Shown piece after piece: positions 5,087 to 53,472 of a DNA stretch of 64,000 nucleotides. A program made the translations under genes and the position numbers. The stretch covers positions 372,001-436,000 of the forward strand of contig NC_015577.1 of the NCBI RefSeq assembly GCF_000214355.1, read 5' to 3'. This stretch comes from Leadbettera azotonutricia ZAS-9. Its GTDB lineage: Bacteria; Spirochaetota; Spirochaetia; Treponematales; Breznakiellaceae. The notes beneath the pieces were generated by a model. That model saw only the letters and a list, made by a program, of their open reading frames with translations. It searched no databases and was not told where the DNA came from. Every line of letters starts with the position of its first letter. The stretch's first letter is position 1.

Positions 5087-6619
5087 ATGAACAGTATTCA
5101 GCTTAGTCAAACGAATCTTTCCAAATTGAATAAGGCTATCCATACACCTTCGTATGACCGGAATCAACGCTCGCCCGCAATAGTCCACCTTGGGCTGGGG
5201 CACTTTCACCGGGCCCACATGGCTTTCTTCCTGGATGCCCTGCTTAAAACAGGCATAACCAGGGCGGGCATTTTTGAGGTGAACCTTGTCCCGGACCGCC
5301 TTCCCATAGGGAAGATACTTAAGGAACAGGATTATCTCTATACCCTGCTCACGAAAAGCGGAGCCGGAAATCACAGCGAAGCTCCCAGCGGGAAGGAAGA
5401 CGCTATAGTAATCGGCTCAATCTTGAGTTATGCCAATGCCTCGGATAGCCTTGCCGAAAAAAACAGGCTCATCGAAAAGGTTGCCTCCGGGGAAACAGCC
5501 CTTGTCAGCCTTACCATCACTGAGAAGGGCTATTGCTTTATCCCTGCCGATTTTACCCTTGACCTTAACCACCCTGCAATCAAGCACGATCTTGAACACC
5601 CCGAAGATCCCCAGTCTGCGGTCGGCTTCCTCGCTGCAGTCCTGAGCAAGCGTTCTGCCTCAAATAGGCAGCCCCTTACGATCATGTCCTGCGATAATTT
5701 CCCCTCAAACGGGGAAACCCTTAGCCGTCTTATCCGCACTTTTTGCGAGAAGGTGTATCCTTCCTGCATCTCCTGGATAGAAGAAAATGTCGCCTTCCCC
5801 TGTTCCATGGTTGACCGCATTACCCCCAATACCACCCCGGCCCACTCCAAAGAGCTGGAAGAAAAATTCGGCATCATTGACAATTGGCCTGTCTGCTCCG
5901 AAGATTTTATCCAATGGGTTTTGGAAGATAATTTTCTTCTGCCCCCCGGATCGGCCTTTAATCCAAAAGATTTTGCCAAGGTTGGCGTACAGCTCGTAAA
6001 GGATGTAGAGCCTTACGAACACATGAAGCAGCGCATCCTCAACGGAAGCCATTCAGCCCTTGCCTATACTTCCTATTTAATGGGCATCAGGAAAGTCGAC
6101 GAAGCCATGGCTGACCCTCAAATTTTCAAATTTGTGCGCAGCCTATATATGGAAGAAGCCGGGGCAGCCCTTCCGCCCATAGAAGGCGTGGATCTTAAAG
6201 CGTATAAAGACACAACGGCAAACCGTTTTTGCAACCCCAATATCTCCGATACTATCCTTCGCCTTTGCGAAGACGGCTCTACCAAGATTCCCAATTTCAT
6301 ACTCAGGCCGTTAAAGGACGCCTTGCAGCAGAATCTCGGATATCACGCCTTTGTCTTTGCCCTCGCAGGCTGGGCTCGTTTCCTTACAGGTTCTGATGAA
6401 CAGGGGCAGCCCATACCGATTAATGACCCCAACGCTGATGCGCTTAAGGCTGTTGCGGCACAGGCGCGGGAAAATCCTGCGGCGTTTTTGCGAAGCATTG
6501 GCGTTGCGGATATTTCTGATGATGCTTTTGGCAAATTAACTGCCCTGTTTAAGGACTACCTTGAAAAATTCTATAGCAAGGGTGCAAGGGAAAGTTTGGG
6601 GGAATTTCTTAAACAGTAA
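5087..6619 (+). CDS. mannitol dehydrogenase family oxidoreductase
   Basis: The 510-aa protein belongs to the polyol-specific long-chain dehydrogenases. The N-terminal nucleotide-binding motif is HLGLGHFHRAH, and the catalytic region MKQRILNGSHSALAY holds the family Lys, Asn and His. The family reversibly oxidises mannitol to fructose, or reduces fructuronate or tagaturonate, with NAD(P)(H). The exact substrate cannot be read from sequence; mannitol 2-dehydrogenase or fructuronate reductase are the main options. It starts 3 bp after rex with AAGGAG, so it is probably cotranscribed, tying an NAD(H)-linked sugar reaction to the redox operon. Confidence 0.87.
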   Translation: MNSIQLSQTNLSKLNKAIHTPSYDRNQRSPAIVHLGLGHFHRAHMAFFLDALLKTGITRAGIFEVNLVPDRLPIGKILKEQDYLYTLLTKSGAGNHSEAPSGKEDAIVIGSILSYANASDSLAEKNRLIEKVASGETALVSLTITEKGYCFIPADFTLDLNHPAIKHDLEHPEDPQSAVGFLAAVLSKRSASNRQPLTIMSCDNFPSNGETLSRLIRTFCEKVYPSCISWIEENVAFPCSMVDRITPNTTPAHSKELEEKFGIIDNWPVCSEDFIQWVLEDNFLLPPGSAFNPKDFAKVGVQLVKDVEPYEHMKQRILNGSHSALAYTSYLMGIRKVDEAMADPQIFKFVRSLYMEEAGAALPPIEGVDLKAYKDTTANRFCNPNISDTILRLCEDGSTKIPNFILRPLKDALQQNLGYHAFVFALAGWARFLTGSDEQGQPIPINDPNADALKAVAAQARENPAAFLRSIGVADISDDAFGKLTALFKDYLEKFYSKGARESLGEFLKQ

Positions 6620-6635
6620 ACCGTGGTTTTTTTGT

Positions 6636-6839
6636 TCAGAAGGTTTCAAAATAACAGGCAAATTCCCGGGAATCCTGCCTTTCCCTGCCCCAGACGAGAA
6701 ATTCAGAACTTATAACTGAGTTGTAGAGAACGCTGGCGTTGCTCCATTCGCCAAACCTTTTCTCAAAACGCTGTATAACCTCGCTTTTGGGCAGGCCGTT
6801 TTTAATCAGCTTCTTGATATAATCGAGTTTCCTATCCAT
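6636..6839 (-). CDS. small hypothetical protein (67 aa)
   Basis: A 67-aa ORF runs opposite to the operon just downstream of the mannitol-dehydrogenase gene. An AAGGGGATGAG ribosome-binding region lies before its ATG. The product is charged, predicted helical and without membrane segments or a domain I recognise; it contains IKNGLPKSEVIQRFEKRFG, which could be a small helix-turn-helix-like unit. Function is unknown. Confidence 0.5.
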   Translation of the reverse strand: MDRKLDYIKKLIKNGLPKSEVIQRFEKRFGEWSNASVLYNSVISSEFLVWGRERQDSREFACYFETF

Positions 6840-7064
6840 TTCTCATCCCCTTAAAATAGAAAGCATATCGCAGGAATTTGGAAAAACCAATGTTTTTGTG
6901 GACTTTTAAGCCAAATTTTGAAGGAAGCAAATGACAGAATATGGGAAAACGTCATTCTGCATCCATTAATATCAGAATTACCCTTTCGTTAAAAAACACG
7001 GATTTCCCGTAATTCTTAAAATATTTCCCCTCCTCACTTGTCTGCATAAGTAGAGGAGATATAT

Positions 7065-7457
7065 ATGAACAAAAAATTTGCTAAACATGGTTTTGTGGGT
7101 ATTTTGATTTTCCTGGCCGCCATTGCTGTTTTCAGCATAGCCGCCATGCTCTTGTGGAACTGGCTCGTGCCGCCAATTTTCGGCCTCCCTGCGATCAGTT
7201 ACCTCCAGGCCCTGGGGCTTATGGTCCTGGTACGTATTCTGCTCTCGGGCCTTCCCTTTAACGGGATAAGGGCAATGAGGGGCGCGGCTCTTTGGGGCAA
7301 GAATAACCCCATCAGGGAAAAGTGGATGAATATGACCGAAGAGGAACGCAATGAGTTTGTGATGAGGGAAAGGGGTTTTCATAATCATTTCCATGGCCAC
7401 GCAAGGGGCGAAGGTCATGCAAAGGGCGATGACACTAAAGGAAAAGAAAATGACTAA
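7065..7457 (+). CDS. hypothetical membrane protein, first gene of an ABC operon
   Basis: This 130-aa protein has two hydrophobic segments (about 8-38 and 50-70) and a His-rich hydrophilic C-terminus (HNHFHGHARGEGHAKG). The His-rich tail could bind metal, but that is speculation. GTAGAGGAGATATAT supplies a good ribosome-binding site. The gene overlaps the ATP-binding subunit by 8 bp, so it is likely translated with the exporter and may be an accessory subunit. The roughly 225 bp upstream are AT-rich and should hold the operon promoter; no specific operator is evident. Confidence 0.75.
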   Translation: MNKKFAKHGFVGILIFLAAIAVFSIAAMLLWNWLVPPIFGLPAISYLQALGLMVLVRILLSGLPFNGIRAMRGAALWGKNNPIREKWMNMTEEERNEFVMRERGFHNHFHGHARGEGHAKGDDTKGKEND

Positions 7458-8223
7458 CTCAGCCATTGAAGTCAGGAATCTGACCAAAAGGTACAAGAAT
7501 TCCGGAATCCCTGCTGTTGATGATGTCAGCTTTTCGGTGGACGAAGGGGAATTTTTCGCCTTCCTCGGGCCCAACGGGGCGGGTAAAACCACTACCATTT
7601 CTATACTGACCACCACCCTGGGCAAGACTTCGGGCAGCGTTTCCATAGGGGGCTATGATCTTGAAAAAAGCCCCCAGGAAGTCAGGGCCAACATCGGCAT
7701 TATTTTCCAAAAGCCCAGCCTCGACCTGGATCTCTCGGCGGAAGAAAATATCAGGCTCCACGCCTGCATGTACGGCATGTATATGTACAAACCCTTCTTC
7801 AAGTGGATGCCGAAGGCTTATAAGGACAAGGTGATGGACCTGGCTGATATCATGGGCATCAAGGACAAACTCTGGAAGCCCCTCAGGACTTTTTCCGGCG
7901 GCATGCAGCGCAAAATTGAAATCGTCCGCAGCCTGATCCATCAGCCCCAGGTGCTTTTCCTTGACGAGCCTTCCCAGGGCCTCGACCCTGTAAGCCGCCG
8001 CTCCCTCTGGGATTACATCAACCAGACGCGGAAGCAGTACGGTACCACGGTTTTTCTCACCACCCACTATATTGACGAGGCGGAAAACGTAGATACTGTG
8101 TGCATGATCAACAAGGGGAAGATCATCTTCTCGGGTTCGCCCATGAATCTCAAATCCAGCCTTCGCGAGGCTTCGCTGGAAGACGCCTACATCAATTTGC
8201 TCACTACAGGAGATGCAGCATGA
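7450..8223 (+). CDS. ABC-2 type exporter, ATP-binding protein
   Basis: A standard ABC ATPase of 257 aa: Walker A GPNGAGKTT (40-48), signature FSGGMQRK (148-155), Walker B VLFLDEP (168-174) and an H-loop TTHYIDEAE. The start at 7450 is preferred over upstream in-frame Mets because AAAGGAAAAG precedes it and similarity to ABC proteins begins there. It pairs with the permease that starts on its stop codon. The DrrA/CcmA-like type fits export of drugs or lipids, but the substrate is unknown. Confidence 0.9.
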   Translation: MTNSAIEVRNLTKRYKNSGIPAVDDVSFSVDEGEFFAFLGPNGAGKTTTISILTTTLGKTSGSVSIGGYDLEKSPQEVRANIGIIFQKPSLDLDLSAEENIRLHACMYGMYMYKPFFKWMPKAYKDKVMDLADIMGIKDKLWKPLRTFSGGMQRKIEIVRSLIHQPQVLFLDEPSQGLDPVSRRSLWDYINQTRKQYGTTVFLTTHYIDEAENVDTVCMINKGKIIFSGSPMNLKSSLREASLEDAYINLLTTGDAA

Positions 8224-9047
8224 ATGCCGTCGCATTAAATCCGATTCCCATGACTATGCCCAAGGTATTGCGGGAATTAAACGCCATAATTACCATCGTA
8301 TGCCGGGATGTTTTTCTGGCAGTCAAATCGCCGCCTAAAATATTCATGGCGATCCTTATGCCGGTTATGATGCTCGGCATGTTCGGTAGCCAGCTCTCCC
8401 AAAACATGGGTATCAACATGGGCTTCAATTTCAATCAGTTTATGCTGGTCGGCATGTTGGTTAACGGCCTTTTTATGATAACCATGATGGGCATTACTTC
8501 CCTTGTGGAAGACAGGGAAACTGATTTTACCCAGGAAATCCTGGTCGCCCCTGTGTCCAGGTATTCCATAATTTTTGGAAAGATTATCGGCGCTTCTGTA
8601 ATGAGCTATATCCAGTTTTTTGCGACACTCATTGTGGGCCTTTGCATCGGCGCAACCCTCAGCACAAAGGAACTGCTCATGCTGTTCGCTGTCTCGCCCC
8701 TTATGTGCCTTGCCGCCGGTTCTCTCGCAGTGGTGTGCATTGGTTTTATCCATAAAAGCACTACTGCTAATTTTGTGGTAATGATGTTGTCCATGGCGCA
8801 GATGTTCCTCTCGGGCGCGATGATTCCGATCAATAATTCAAAGGGCCTCATGGCTGTTTTAAGCCGCCTCCTGCCCATGACCTACTGTATTGACTTTGCC
8901 CGGGGAATGTTCTACCAAAATACAGGGGAAACCGTGAATGTTACGCTTTATCCGCCCGCAGTCAACCTTATTATCATCGCTTCATTTACAGCTGTGTTTT
9001 TTATAAGCGGTACTATTGCCTTTGTTCATGCAGAGACGAACAAATAA
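8220..9047 (+). CDS. ABC-2 type transporter permease
   Basis: A 275-aa integral membrane protein with about six hydrophobic segments and the ABC-2 layout: VEDRETDFTQEILVAPVS marks the cytoplasmic loop, and SGAMIPINNS precedes the last helices. It starts at the ATG that overlaps the ATPase stop (ATGA), behind AGGAG. It forms the membrane channel for the preceding ATPase; the exported substrate is unknown. Confidence 0.88.
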   Translation: MNAVALNPIPMTMPKVLRELNAIITIVCRDVFLAVKSPPKIFMAILMPVMMLGMFGSQLSQNMGINMGFNFNQFMLVGMLVNGLFMITMMGITSLVEDRETDFTQEILVAPVSRYSIIFGKIIGASVMSYIQFFATLIVGLCIGATLSTKELLMLFAVSPLMCLAAGSLAVVCIGFIHKSTTANFVVMMLSMAQMFLSGAMIPINNSKGLMAVLSRLLPMTYCIDFARGMFYQNTGETVNVTLYPPAVNLIIIASFTAVFFISGTIAFVHAETNK

Positions 9048-31789: not shown

Positions 31790-32060
31790 GCCTTTGCCGG
31801 GGACGGGTTCTTATTTATAGAAGAAACCCGCGGTACCACCCCGCTTCGCTCTCCCATGGCAGGAGGCGCGCTCATCATCCTTAACGTGGATTTACGGCTT
31901 TGATTATTCAGACTGCCGTGTTGGGGCGGCCCTTTCCTCAAGCTGCTCGGGAGGGGTTTTCGGCGTTTCCTGGATAACCGCGCTTTCAGCCATGGCACGG
32001 TCTCTCTGTAACCCGGTGTGACGCTTACTCGTCTCCGTCAATGCATTTAGATAAGGATGG
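31790..32060 (-). promoter_or_regulatory. T-box leader RNA of thrS (probable Thr-responsive riboswitch)
   Basis: On the minus strand the conserved T-box sequence GGGGTGGTACCGCG lies at 31829-31842. Upstream is a stem-I-like region with GACGAGTAAGC and AGAGAG elements; an ACC triplet after GAAA (31955-31957) is a candidate Thr specifier. After the T-box comes a CGGGTTTCTT / AAGAACCCG hairpin that lacks a U-run. A CCTCCTG segment (about 31861-31870 region) is complementary to the thrS ribosome-binding site CAGGAGG, so control may be translational. A consensus TTGACA lies at 32077-32082, a plausible -35 box. Confidence 0.8.
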
Positions 32061-47817: not shown

Positions 47818-48022
47818 GTTTTAAGTCTCCAAAAACTCATTTTTTGAAAACAAAAAGCTTATTATGTATGAAATAGTATACACTTATTGCGTTTTTTAGC
47901 ATATATTATAAAAGAAGTCATATTTTTCTGAAAAAAAGTAAGAAGTATGATTTTTTCTTATATCAGGTGTTACCTGTTGTTATAATTATATACAGGATAA
48001 AGAATTAGTCAACTACCCGCGT

Positions 48023-48124: not shown

Positions 48125-49360
48125 ATGGGGTTAACGATGAAAGAGAAACAGGCGCTTGCCAGAGAAATCAGCAAGCGGTATCGCAAAGCCGGGAAAAAGG
48201 GCAAGACCGCTATCCTGGACGAGTTTGTCCAGAACACAGGGTACAACCGGAAATACGCCCTGCACCTTTTGGCGAATTGGGGGAGAACGGAACTGGTCAG
48301 ACTGGCCGGAAGGGTTGTTAAGCTCAAGGCCGATGCGTTTAAAAAACGAAAAGCAGGGGGAGGGCGGAAGCCGGTCTACCAGGCGGCAACGATAAAAGCC
48401 CTCAAACTGATTTGGGAGTTCTTTGATTACATGTGCGGGAAAAGGCTTTCCCCCTTCCTCCGGGAACAGATGCCTTTCCTCAATCCCTGCAAGGAGTTTG
48501 GCATCACCAAGGAGGTAAAGGCGCAGCTGCTTGCCATAAGCCCCGCCACCATCGACCGGAAGCTCAAGCCTGAACGGAAGAAGCTGGAATTAAAAGGACG
48601 GAGCGCCACACGGCCCGGCGGCCTCCTCAAGCACCAGATCCCCATCCGTGTCTTTTATGCCTGGGATGAGAGGAAACCGGGCTTTTTTGAGCTGGATACG
48701 GTGGTTCATGACGGCGGAAACGCCTCAGGCGAGTTCTGCTGTACCCTCAATGCCACCGATGTCTATTCAGGCTGGGTGGAGCTCCGCGCCCTCCTCAACA
48801 AGGCCCATCGCTGGGTTAAAGAGGAGGTGTCTCTCTTCCCCTCCCAGTTTCCCTTCCCCCTTTTGGGCATCGACAGCGATAACGGCGGGGAGTTCATTAA
48901 TTACCAGCTCAAGGCATGGTGTGACGAACACCGCGTCCAGTTCACCCGCAGCCGTTCCTACCACAAGAACGACAACTGCTTCGTGGAGCAGAAAAACGAC
49001 ATGACCGTCCGCAGGACCGTGGGGTACTATCGCTATGACACCCTCCAGGCCAGAGACGCCCTGGCCGAGGTCTACCGCCATCTCTGTCCCCTGCTCAACT
49101 ATTTTTACCCTTCAGAAAAAATAATCGCCAAGGAGCGGATAGGGGCCAGGGTCAAGAAGGTGTACGACAAACCCAAGTCGCCCTACAGGCGCCTCTTGGA
49201 ATCCCCTGACCTTCCTGATATTTTTAAGAACGAGCTTCGACGCAGGGCTGCCCGTCTCAATCCGGTCAAGCAGAAACGCCTGGTCAACCATGCACTGATG
49301 GCTCTCTTCGAGCTTCAGAGCCAGAAGTCCCTTGCTGCTTCGGCTCTTGAAGATATTTAG
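48125..49360 (+). CDS. DDE transposase (integrase catalytic core)
   Basis: A 411-aa transposase with a basic helical N-terminus (LLANWGRTELVRLAGRVVKL) and an rve-type DDE core: Asp191 in FELDTVVHDGG, Asp250 in LGIDSDNGGEF, and Glu288 in NCFVEQKNDM. The C-terminus is helical and basic. I would place it near the IS481/ISNCY-like integrase-core transposases, but the family was not checked by search. Length and frame look intact, so it could be active. A Met at codon 5 (48137) is an alternative start. Confidence 0.88.
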   Translation: MGLTMKEKQALAREISKRYRKAGKKGKTAILDEFVQNTGYNRKYALHLLANWGRTELVRLAGRVVKLKADAFKKRKAGGGRKPVYQAATIKALKLIWEFFDYMCGKRLSPFLREQMPFLNPCKEFGITKEVKAQLLAISPATIDRKLKPERKKLELKGRSATRPGGLLKHQIPIRVFYAWDERKPGFFELDTVVHDGGNASGEFCCTLNATDVYSGWVELRALLNKAHRWVKEEVSLFPSQFPFPLLGIDSDNGGEFINYQLKAWCDEHRVQFTRSRSYHKNDNCFVEQKNDMTVRRTVGYYRYDTLQARDALAEVYRHLCPLLNYFYPSEKIIAKERIGARVKKVYDKPKSPYRRLLESPDLPDIFKNELRRRAARLNPVKQKRLVNHALMALFELQSQKSLAASALEDI

Positions 49361-49421: not shown

Positions 49422-50523
49422 TTACGCTACCACCTGTTATGTGTCAATACCTACTTATACCTCAAAATATGGGATTCTGCTGTCAGATGTGCTGTCAATT
49501 CTTTTCACCCGCCTAAAACCAGCCCAAACCGCCCCGAATAAGGCCCCCGGAAAGCAGAAAGGACAAAAGCCTACCGGCTTTTCCCAACTCATTAACGCCG
49601 CCCTTTTTTACGCCGCATTGTCCCAGGGTAAAACCTTCGCCCCAAATCGGCGTAAAAAACCCCGGCCCCCACCCCCGCCAACCGGGGCCGTTATCCCCAT
49701 ACCGCCACCACCGTTCCGTAACCCGGCGGCATTGCCGCCGGAATAATCCGTAGGACAAAGCGCCATAGGCCGTTCCGTCCGCTCCGTAAACTCCGCTCCC
49801 TCCACGGCCCAAGGCGCTTACCCGATTTACCAAGGGGGATAAAGGCGGGGGCAACATCACCCAAATTAAAAGCCCCATTTTCACCAACAGTAAAGATGCC
49901 GTCCCAAGCAGCCCCCGCCTTCCCCCTTGAACCCCCATACCACCCTCACTGTCTAAAGCCCCGCCAACACCCGCCGCCTGCCTAACGGCAAGCAGCGCAT
50001 TAGTCGCAAGTGTAAAAATTCCTAAGATCGCAAGCGGAAGCCATCAACCCCGCTATGAAGCATTTACCCGCTATACTCCAAAGCCGGGGCATACAAACAG
50101 CGGCCCTCCATTGCCCCATACCGTATAGCCCTCATGGGGACTAAACCGCATGGGGCAATTCCGGGCCGCCTAAAGCCGTATCCTGGCCAATGGACCCTCC
50201 GGCGCTGCGCTTCTCCGGGACCACCGGCCCCCCGGCTTTTCCGCCTGGTCCTCCGCATACCGGGACCGTTATTCCCATATCGCCGCCCATCGGCCTTTAT
50301 CCGCACAAGCATTTTTCTAAAGCACTCCGGGGGCGTCCTGCCCCCTCCGTGCCGCATGGGGGCTAATCCTCACGCCCCCATGCTTAACTTTATTTCCACA
50401 GGCAATTATCCCAGCGCCCTATCGGGCGCCCGATGCTTCGACAGTAAAAAAATTATTCCCTGCTCCGGCTGTAATAAAACCACACTCCGTAATTCGGCTG
50501 TATATAAACCGTGGGGGGATCAT

Positions 50524-50902
50524 CGTACTACGCCCACCCAGGGCCGCTTCTTCCATCGAGCTAAGAGTAGTTCGGTGGTGGTTTATGGACGACCTGTATT
50601 GTCCCTCCCCCTCGCCGCCGGGCTTCCCCCTCTCTGGCGGGCTGCGCCCGCGAAATATGTTGGGTTTATTCCCGCCGCTCCCTTCGGTCGCTCTGGTCGT
50701 AAACCCTTCATCAACGGCTCAAAGGGGGAGGGACAGCCCCCGGCCCGTGGCCGGGGCCGAGAGGTATAAAAAAATACAAACATCCATGTTTGCATTTTTT
50801 TATTTCCAGGCGGCGTCCTGCCGCCCGTCCATAAACCACCACAGCGGGGCGTACTATGCCCACCCGGATTTTCGGTTTCCCAACAAGCCCTATCGTAGTT
50901 CG
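50524..50902. repeat. repeated module and long-range inverted repeat
   Basis: CGTACTACGCCCACCC (50524-50539) recurs as CGTACTATGCCCACCC (50850-50865), each followed after 27-29 bp by GTAGTTCG (50567-50574 and 50895-50902). Between the modules the perfect 17-bp inverted repeat 50575-50591 / 50826-50842 brackets four hairpins. Confidence 0.7.
50766..50803. terminator. bidirectional terminator-like hairpin
   Basis: An 18-bp stem with one mismatch and a CC loop: A7 and TACAAACAT on one side, ATGTTTGCA and T7 on the other. It would work as a rho-independent terminator on either strand, or as an A-U-rich arm of the structured RNA. Confidence 0.55.
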
Positions 50903-51260
50903 CCCCACGGCTGACGTGAAGTGAAAACCCCTCGGCTGATAAAAACATTCTCCCCACCTTCGCAGACCCTCCCTCGCCGATAGGCGAGTTCTTCACCTTC
51001 ATCGGCAATAACCGCCACCCCTCCGGCCCTGCGGTCCTCCGGGTAGGCGGCCCATGATGCGAACCGATACCATCATCCCCAATTCCCTGACCGCCGCCTT
51101 CTCCCCCGAACCGGGGCCGATGTTGGGTGATGAAGCCTAGTCCCTCCGTAACACCCGCCCACCCTTTCAGGGAGGGCGGGCCGATACCCCAAGTACCGTC
51201 GCCGCCGATGGGTGAACCGCCCCCTGCGGGGGCGGCCCGATGAATGACCGATGACCAAAC

Positions 51261-51605
51261 GAATTCACGAATTCAGCAAGGCCCCTATATAATATATAAG
51301 AAAATTATATTTTCTTTTTTTTAATGACAGAATAGTCATAAAAAAAAGAATAGAGAGTATACGGAATACTCCATAACAAGAGGAAGCCAATAAAAGTAAT
51401 CAGTACCAATGACCGAAACTCCCCGAATCCGGCCCTTATTTCAGTCATTGATGACAACCTGTTCCGACATTATTTCAAACCGGATGAAAATATTCCTGCA
51501 AGCAAGGGGGGAGCGCGCGCCCGCTAAAATTGCCTGTTTTTGCACAAGCAAAATTCAACCTCTGTCCCAATCGAAAAGCAAGACACAAAACCGCAAAACA
51601 CCGTA
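51261..51605. other. AT-rich spacer between hairpin region and prophage
   Basis: No gene is supported here. The stretch 51285-51345 is very AT-rich with TATAAT-like words on the minus strand and could hold the promoter for the hairpin-rich transcript; composition changes abruptly near 51280. A 67-codon + strand ORF (51409-51612) has no ribosome-binding site or recognisable features. Confidence 0.4.
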
Positions 51606-51645
51606 TAAATAAAAAGCTCTGCCGCTAACTCAATAGCAGCAGAGC
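51606..51645 (-). terminator. terminator at the end of the phage operon
   Basis: GCTCTGC and inner GCT pair with AGC and GCAGAGC (51616-51645); on the minus strand the hairpin is followed by TTTTTATTTA. It lies about 100 bp after the primase-helicase stop. Confidence 0.75.
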
Positions 51646-51742
51646 ATACATAGAAAACGCTTAACTAACTCACCCCATGTTTTCACGGCCCAACCAAAGG
51701 GGGCGCACGGGGGGCGGGGAGCAACGGCCCAAAACAAAAAAA

Positions 51743-53137
51743 CTATTCCGTCTTGGCCTTCAGCATAATCCCCGACCAGTACCGGGCCTCTGCGCTCCGG
51801 GTCCGGCTAAAGCCCATTTCCTTTAAGCGCATGGACAAGAGCCGTTCACTCACCGCCCGTTCATTGTTCTGTTCGCACCATTCCTGATACGCCTTAAACA
51901 ATTCCCGTATCCGTATGCTAATCCCCGGCGACTGGATGCAGCACTCTTTCAGGAAGTTCCCGATCACGTCCATTTCACCCTGATAGTCATTGGTAGCGGA
52001 CACGATCACCTCCGGCACTTTAAGCCCCTCCTTACGCCACCGGTATGTCCCTTCAAGCAGCCAGTTTAATATCCCGGAGGCTTCCGCCCGTAATTTCTCC
52101 TCCAGGTGTTTGTCTTGTTTATCCACTTCAATCCGAGTAGTGAAGGGGATCAGTTTAATCCGCCGCCAAATCCCGTAATCAGTACCCCTGATAATAGGCT
52201 TATGGTTTGTCCCCATAAAAATCTTATAGGTCGGCATATAACTAAAATATTCCCCGTACAGGAAACGAGCCGTAATCTTGTCATTCCCCGTAATCTGCTT
52301 TATCAGCGGTTCACTCAGCCGCTTCCCCTGGTCAATTTCCGTAGTCGTTACAAACCGTGCGCCCCGAAGCCGGGCAATGTCATTGGTAATCTGCTCATTG
52401 TTCCGCTTCATAAAGGTATCGGTGGTGGTGGTTATCCCGTAGTCCCCCAGCAAATACATAATCGTATTCAGAAAGGTGCTTTTTCCGTTAGCGCCGGAGC
52501 CGAACAGAATAAACATACTTTGTTCCGACACATCCCCGGTTATACCCAGCCCCGCCACGGTCTGCAAAAACGTGATAATGTCCCCGTTGTAGTTCATTAT
52601 CTCCCGGACAAACTGCTTCCACGCAGGGCAATCCGCCTTCGGGTCGTATTCCACATTGGCAATCTTGGTGATCATGTCCTCCTGCCGATGTTCCCGGAAT
52701 TCCCCGGTCAGAATATCAATAGTTCCGTTCTGCACATTCAAAAGCCAGGGGTTCGTGTCCAGTTCCTCACTGGTGATATTGAGTTCAATAATCCATGAAG
52801 CAGCCTTTATAAAAGCCTCCCGCCGCCGCACATTTTCACTCAACATGGCATATTTCTCAATGTCCATACGCTCCCGGTAATCCGTGGTCTTTAACTGTTC
52901 CTCATAAAGCCCCCGGACCATTTCCAGACCTTTTTCGTGGATCAAAGCCCCATCGTCTATGACCCAGCTTCTACCATCCCACACAATCCATTTTTTCCAG
53001 GCGGCGTTATACCGAATATCCCGGCCATAGATTTCTTTGAGCTTTTCAGCATTGGTTGAGTCGGTAAACTGTATCTTGCCAGCCTTCAAATCCTTAATCC
53101 GCAAATAAATTGATTCATCCCCGACATTCTCATACAT
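51743..53137 (-). CDS. phage/plasmid primase-helicase (D5/P4 family)
   Basis: A 464-aa protein with a D5_N-like N-terminal region and an SF3 helicase core: Walker A FGSGANGKST near 205, Walker B-like RFVTTTEIDQG, and GTNHKPIIRGTDYGIWRRIK (sensor/Arg region), then a C-terminal winged-helix-like tail. It should unwind DNA for phage replication. The ATG at 53137 overlaps the TGA of the preceding gene by one base (TGATG) behind GGGAGG, so translation is coupled. A replication gene at the 3' end of a tail/lysis operon is unusual. Confidence 0.9.
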   Translation of the reverse strand: MYENVGDESIYLRIKDLKAGKIQFTDSTNAEKLKEIYGRDIRYNAAWKKWIVWDGRSWVIDDGALIHEKGLEMVRGLYEEQLKTTDYRERMDIEKYAMLSENVRRREAFIKAASWIIELNITSEELDTNPWLLNVQNGTIDILTGEFREHRQEDMITKIANVEYDPKADCPAWKQFVREIMNYNGDIITFLQTVAGLGITGDVSEQSMFILFGSGANGKSTFLNTIMYLLGDYGITTTTDTFMKRNNEQITNDIARLRGARFVTTTEIDQGKRLSEPLIKQITGNDKITARFLYGEYFSYMPTYKIFMGTNHKPIIRGTDYGIWRRIKLIPFTTRIEVDKQDKHLEEKLRAEASGILNWLLEGTYRWRKEGLKVPEVIVSATNDYQGEMDVIGNFLKECCIQSPGISIRIRELFKAYQEWCEQNNERAVSERLLSMRLKEMGFSRTRSAEARYWSGIMLKAKTE

Positions 53138-53472
53138 CAAGTGCCTCCCTTCATCAGCGCCCGGCCATAAACATGATAGCGGAACGCAAGCAGGTCAAAA
53201 GCCAGTTCCTTTGCATATTCCGGCAATTCCCGCATACATTGTTGGTACAGGGTGTAGCATAAGGTCAAAGACCCCGGCTTGCGTAAATACTCATGGTTCT
53301 TGAAAAACGCAACCGCCCGGTATTCGTCATCCGGCATATCAATTTTTTTCAACCGATACCACATCAAAAGATCATCCGCCCATTCAATTTCATGGGCGGC
53401 GTATTCTTCGAGTGTTTTCCGTTGTTTCCGTACCAGTTCATGGTATCGGGCTTCCGGGTCTTTTGAACGCAT
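53137..53472 (-). CDS. hypothetical phage protein (111 aa)
   Basis: A soluble, charged and aromatic-rich 111-aa protein (IEWADDLLMWYRLKKIDMP; AKELAFDLLAFRYHVYGRA) of unknown family. Its stop shares a base with the primase-helicase start, suggesting a replication accessory role. It begins behind GGGAGAGG. A 190-bp AT-rich gap with no gene separates it from the next upstream ORF and may carry its promoter. Confidence 0.7.
   Translation of the reverse strand: MRSKDPEARYHELVRKQRKTLEEYAAHEIEWADDLLMWYRLKKIDMPDDEYRAVAFFKNHEYLRKPGSLTLCYTLYQQCMRELPEYAKELAFDLLAFRYHVYGRALMKGGT

Follow-up and report, generated by a model that had tools for sequence, protein, structure and literature searches.

Between an insertion sequence and the end of a phage operon lies a stretch of DNA that is full of perfect stems, and the question it raises is whether it encodes a large structured RNA and, if so, what such an RNA could do. 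The window that we analysed is the whole 64,000-nucleotide stretch, bases 372,001-436,000 of a genome that consists of one contig of 3,855,671 bases. The original prediction, made from the sequence alone, placed a candidate phage-associated RNA at 49422-51260; its limits had to be shifted, and the unit really spans ~51275 to ~49556 (Table 1). The locus that we found encodes a conserved, modular noncoding RNA whose fold covaries, and it is located at the end of the prophages of one family, beside a D5 helicase-primase gene. That the RNA is transcribed, starting at an AT-rich promoter and stopping at a terminator-like hairpin, both of its own, is inferred, and no transcript has been shown.

The predicted location between an IS and a phage operon was correct. 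The prophage operon has the helicase-primase gene as its last protein gene, and in most loci this gene immediately precedes the RNA; the terminator with which the operon had been proposed to end is present as a terminator-like hairpin after this gene. Other phage-type genes lie upstream of the D5 gene, together with the gene of an NlpC/P60 protein that matches a tail-protein PHROG. The AT-rich promoter-like zone is conserved in about 17 loci; a plain sigma-70 scan found no minus-strand site in it (~51280-51400), and its imperfect palindrome could be promoter and operator. In the interval from the D5 gene to the RNA, this palindrome and the GTCAT/ATGAC repeats (73 observed against 9.5 expected in 16 loci) together resemble an iteron-type replication origin, and the same region is also found at distant D5 loci without recognisable RNA.

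The RNA unit is near the prophage edge, and in many loci host-type genes come next, beyond a conserved TTGACTAATTC element. This element, a possible integration or crossover site, is present in the window (47990-48012), in L009 (~8687-8709), and in L048, L053, L058 and L064. As for direct-repeat att sites, a second prophage-flanking copy was sought; since TTGACTAATTC is limited to the two prophage ends, att direct repeats are not shown. Elsewhere in the window (31796-32050, minus strand), we detected a T-box leader (RF00230, 98.6 bits).

The many perfect stems described earlier were recovered (50600-50612/50723-50735, 49842-49852/49911-49921 and 50354-50363/50374-50383, for example), and the 17-bp long-range inverted repeat is exact, with arms that are 100% complementary. 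On the minus strand, the fold of a 401-nt stretch has z = -8.0 relative to dinucleotide shuffles, none of 100 being as good. In an alignment of 25 sequences with a mean column identity of 53% (alignment A1), 69 pairs were predicted, 34 of them with compensated changes; this fold, plus the closing stem and minus two weak pairs, gives a core structure of 76 pairs in which 96.2% of the cells are paired. Both-side changes were seen in 35 pairs and 162 cells; shuffles gave 17.9 and 43.2, with 0 of 500 as high. When the partners were slid by 1-3 bases, only 46-59% of the cells remained paired and no more than 37 showed double changes, and the folding energy of the alignment was -104.7, against -23.6 +/- 5.3 with shuffled columns. 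The replacement of AAAC...GUUU by CGGC...GCCG in the stem of hairpin 2 is obvious by eye, and single-strand strings and loops are invariant in the core. The sequences are related, so the counts are not independent, and the alignment used to evaluate the structure is also the one from which it was inferred.

In the covarying columns, G-U pairs occupy 26 cells and A-C pairs 5, whereas the antisense fold gives 5 and 12, and we therefore assign the RNA to the minus strand of the window. The earlier statement that the stretch has no believable ORF was upheld: ORFs of up to 211 aa exist, but those tested lacked a Pfam match, and none of the frames stays open in more than 11 of the 25 sequences. Alignment gap lengths divided by three leave remainder 1 in 121 cases, 2 in 27 and 0 in 22. 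Because indels ignore the frame and no frame stays open, the locus is not a protein gene. With compensatory changes beyond chance and no coding signal, it meets the generic test for a structured noncoding RNA. The computable outcomes that would have refuted the original prediction, namely a protein-like substitution pattern in one frame or absent covariation, did not arise.

Of 200 genomes in the host family, 45 gave DNA matches. The same genome carries two more loci, L009, which is a sister prophage where the RNA follows its own D5 gene, and L010. The latter (~6000-8000) contains an RNA copy and parts of the upstream region, without a D5 gene within the 16 kb fetched, and may be a prophage remnant or an independent unit. 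A D5 gene is upstream on the same strand as the RNA in about half of the 42 loci inspected, and many of the others are at contig ends. A search from the D5 side identified recognisable RNA modules in D5 loci with downstream DNA (L184, L185, L188, L192, L196, L198 and L200); at the search sensitivity used, none were recognised in the distant D5 loci L187, L190 and L195. D5 relatives in six genomes (G184, G163, G199, G143, G003 and G033) have an in-frame stop (TAG, TGA or TAA) within the matched stretch.

A covariance model of the inner core matched 22 of 394 genomes of the order, all of them within the host family. We searched 84,980 species genomes with a 22-base core pattern and found it in 30 contigs, 25 from spirochaetes, one from a Bacteroidales-labelled MAG and four without model support. 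The Bacteroidales-labelled contig (L141, 46-202) is a true match at 177 bits and is misbinned or transferred. The four other non-spirochaete matches (L115, L118, L121 and L131) were rejected as chance because the covariance model gives them no support. No match was found by DNA search in 50,697 phage records, nor in IMG/VR with an exact 29-base string; the 22-base pattern identified one prophage contig in IMG/VR and a D5 protein search one locus. Carriers are mostly titled Spirochaetia, Spirochaetaceae or Treponema, many being MAGs, and from isolate names and family membership we read them as termite-gut organisms. The minus strand of L069 has five matches to TD-2 RNA (RF03162; 99-196, 711-806, 1371-1471, 3192-3283 and 3575-3669) among prophage genes.

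The order on the minus strand, 5' to 3', is primase gene, terminator-like hairpin, GTCAT/ATGAC stretch, AT-rich palindrome, 5' domain, core, module A, module B and a second terminator-like hairpin. L009 and L010 match different segments of the window RNA, which shows that the element is modular. Module A is lost in L058 and L069, and in L184 the core interior is exchanged while the core ends are kept. L192 (2392-2824) has the 5' domain in three tandem copies. The terminal stem varies by locus yet stays paired (AAAAGCC/GGCTTTT, AAAATTGC/GCAATTTT, AAAAACCC/GGGTTTTT), with a pyrimidine tail after it.

Table 1. Features of the locus, in 5' to 3' order of the minus strand (window positions).
Feature	Position	Strand	Basis or remark
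D5_N helicase-primase, last protein gene of the prophage operon	51743-53140	-	Pfam D5_N 1.6e-32; PHROG DNA primase 4.5e-128
Intrinsic terminator-like hairpin 3' of primase gene	51616-51645	-	related hairpin in L009 at ~6757-6800
Intergenic stretch dense in GTCAT/ATGAC repeats	51162-51712		7 repeats in window copy; iteron-like, possible origin
AT-rich imperfect palindrome, promoter-like zone	51280-51400	-	inverted repeats I9, I12; typical form in relatives TTTATGACTATTATGACAATAAAAAAAAGAAATATATAGGGG
Inferred RNA transcription unit, ~1.7 kb	49556-51275	-	limits from AT-rich zone and 3' terminator-like hairpin; strand from G-U vs A-C counts
5' domain, hairpin then UUUUACGGA	50994-51187	-	conserved in ~23 loci
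Core domain, ~400 nt	50507-50912	-	76-pair consensus fold, 25 sequences
Closing stem, 5' side, GCCGUGGGG	50903-50911	-	helix 1
17-bp long-range helix, 5' arm	50826-50842	-	helix 2; both-side changes in 12/16 pairs
Hairpin 1, GGCAGGACGCC	50812-50822	-	CsrA-like A(N)GGA loop, in 25/25
Hairpin 2, ...AAACAUGGAUGUUU...	50766-50803	-	ANGGA loop, in 24/25; stem both-side changes in 13/16 pairs
Inner core domain	50597-50762	-	most conserved strings GAGCCGUUGAUGAAGGGUUU and GGGGAAGCCCGGCGGCGAGGGG; basis of covariance model R1
17-bp long-range helix, 3' arm	50575-50591	-	helix 2
Closing stem, 3' side, CCCCACGGU	50508-50516	-	helix 1
Optional module A, ~600 nt	49749-50393	-	whole or partial in about a dozen loci
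Module A hairpin, loop GUGAGGAUUA (AGGA)	50354-50383	-	perfect inverted repeat
Module A hairpin GGGGGCAGGACGCCCCC, AGGA loop	50329-50345	-	28 nt from preceding GGA
Module B, 3' hairpin domain	49579-49675	-	
3'-terminal terminator-like hairpin, AAAAGCC-GGTA-GGCTTTT and pyrimidine tail	49565-49582	-	stem covaries in relatives
IS transposase, rve domain, outside RNA	48125-49360	+	27-bp IS end at 9 further genome places
Conserved TTGACTAATTCTTTATCCTGTAT at prophage edge, possible integration site	47990-48012	-	sequence conservation among loci

Hairpins 1 and 2 carry the two apical loops of the core that keep their motif. Loop 1 is A(N)GGA[C/A/U] flanked by GGC and GCC in all 25 sequences. Loop 2 is A-N-GGA in 24 of 25, with N free and the stem beneath freely exchanged, and reads ACA-N-GGA-YGU in relatives with the AAAC/GUUU stem. 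The two GGA motifs are spaced by 30-32 nt in all 24 measurable sequences, and a second GGA pair in module A (GUGAGGAUUA and GGCAGGACGCC) is 28-31 nt apart. Stems with identical loops had been proposed, and this holds in part, for GGCAGGACGCC at 50822 and 50342 on the minus strand. Within RNA regions the loop-1 hairpin motif has a density of 0.90 per kb, outside them 0.005 per kb, and with 30 copies in 3.86 Mb it was ruled out as a dispersed repeat. In 15 related loci we counted 39 A(N)GGA hairpin apices, compared with 10.1 +/- 3.1 in shuffles.

These loops are similar to the sites of CsrA. The repeat of CsrB is CAGGA(U/A/C)G, the CsrA SELEX consensus is RUACARGGAUGU with GGA in hairpin loops, and CsrA dimers bridge sites 10-63 nt apart with an optimum above 18 (PMC7652899). 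The host csrA gene adjoins fliW and encodes Leu4 and Arg44 (the residues and fliW were recognised by eye), and csrA was identified in 10 of 12 genomes tested. What is expected of a CsrA-sequestering RNA is met in two respects, with conserved A(N)GGA hairpin-loop sites at bridging distance, although fewer than in CsrB, and with a host that encodes CsrA with RNA-binding residues. Because loop motifs, GGA spacing and apex excess match CsrA sites and the host csrA is beside fliW, a phage-borne CsrA-binding (sponge) RNA is in our view the likeliest single mechanism, at a little under an even chance; neither a transcript nor CsrA binding has been shown. Such an RNA would bind the host regulator CsrA. 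Its rigid stems would present the A(N)GGA loops two by two, some 30 nt from each other, a spacing at which a single CsrA dimer could span both members of a pair. If abundant, the phage-made RNA would titrate CsrA away from flagellin and metabolic mRNAs of the host and reprogram host physiology in favour of the phage, as CsrB or RsmZ acts for the cell, and the surrounding ornate helices may hold, protect or multimerise the loop display.

Several observations do not fit this sponge well. CsrB carries about 18-22 CsrA sites and the prophage RNA just 2-4 clear ones; the window alone has only 3 A(N)GGA apices where 1.05 are expected, and an ornate RNA of 1-2 kb exceeds the needs of a simple sponge. 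In L009 the inner core has been replaced, so that the A(N)GGA hairpins left are all other ones, and two of the 12 genomes (78% and 92% complete) show no csrA. Hairpin 2 has 16 pairs, whereas SELEX sites favour short stems (PMC7652899). We put forward only tentatively, as a claim somewhat likelier to fail than to hold, that this large phage RNA represents a new class, one sequestering CsrA via paired A(N)GGA hairpins on an ornate scaffold, that is, a viral sponge and CsrA-antagonist RNA in a FliW bacterium.

The main rival, which remains and is compatible with CsrA binding, is that the locus encodes a large phage RNA that acts as GOLLD or ROOL do, being made during lytic growth as a multimer or scaffold of RNA alone, in which the GGA loops make tertiary or intermolecular contacts and are not CsrA sites. 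We regard this as possible, though doubtful as it stands. Phage location, size, an ornate covarying fold, a long-range closing stem, a modular variable part and an invariant core all agree with it, and GOLLD and ROOL are prophage or phage RNAs that form RNA-only nanocages of unknown function (PMC12286853). The likeness to these two RNAs in the original prediction survives in style, but not as membership: no Rfam family was matched at its gathering score, up to E = 10 only chance-level matches appeared, and there is no sequence or structure match to either family. Both are often near tRNA islands (PMC12286853); here the location is a prophage, and the window contains no tRNA. The tolerance of A(N)GGA[C/A/U] and the paired spacing are also better explained by CsrA.

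An RNA linked to a replication origin is unlikely. The locus would then be the phage origin, and the transcript would prime or control replication by the D5 helicase-primase, consistent with the constant position beside the D5 gene and with the repeat excess and AT-rich palindrome between gene and RNA. However, repeats and palindrome are mostly upstream of the RNA and therefore account for the neighbourhood, not for a kilobase of strand-specific RNA fold, and neither priming nor transcriptional activation requires such a conserved structure.

Still weaker is the idea of a GC-rich palindromic DNA repeat array or extended recombination site at the prophage edge, without RNA function, to which we give very little credence. 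Modules are indeed shuffled, duplicated and lost, small GC-rich hairpins are present, and TTGACTAATTC marks the edge; but G-U and not A-C pairs are tolerated on one strand alone, nested helices extend with covariation across hundreds of nucleotides, single-strand strings and loops are invariant, and the loop-1 hairpin is not widely dispersed. Decay of a phage protein gene, or hairpins that arose by chance in GC-rich DNA, is suggested by nothing more than ORFs on both strands and is refuted by the frame, indel, Pfam and fold results, the fold being far beyond shuffles.

We found no description of this prophage RNA in Rfam or the literature searched, and no clear precedent for phage-encoded CsrA-binding RNAs among the titles and abstracts listed. 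Few large structured phage RNAs are known, and the best-known, GOLLD and ROOL, are without established function. The RNA described here offers many natural variants with clear module boundaries, a host that is probably cultured, and a concrete, cheap binding test. Were the CsrA reading true, a phage would capture the global post-transcriptional regulator of its host with an RNA decoy, and this would bear on the open question of whether FliW and RNAs of the Csr type work in concert within a single bacterium (PMC7652899).

Judged by Rfam covariance models, which gave no match to GOLLD, ROOL, OLE, HEARO or the Csr/Rsm families, the prophage RNA is not a member of any of these families, but may still work like one. 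It shares with GOLLD the character of a large, ornate, covarying phage or prophage RNA with a conserved and a variable part. Unlike GOLLD, it adjoins a D5 helicase-primase gene with no tRNA island in the window, is unrelated in sequence and fold, and was found only in termite-gut spirochaete prophages in the searches made. An RNA of the GOLLD kind would be expected to form an RNA-only nanocage and to rise in expression during lysis. ROOL is likewise a large phage or prophage RNA, pairs in a complex way over long distances and contains no known protein gene, whereas the window RNA is longer, modular, and has paired A(N)GGA hairpins and no tRNA island. OLE and HEARO are also large ornate bacterial RNAs, but the window RNA lacks an associated ORF or known partner gene in the locus. 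Like CsrB, CsrC and RsmZ, it repeats A(N)GGA in hairpin loops, with CAGGA(U/A/C)G among them, at distances suited to bridging; it differs in being phage-encoded, 1-2 kb long and heavily structured, with few clear sites, and in its host, a csrA-fliW bacterium. We know of no CsrA-sequestering RNAs in csrA-fliW bacteria. A large ornate phage RNA is of a known kind; within that kind, one from spirochaetes that is phage-borne, has several domains and bears CsrA sites would be new.
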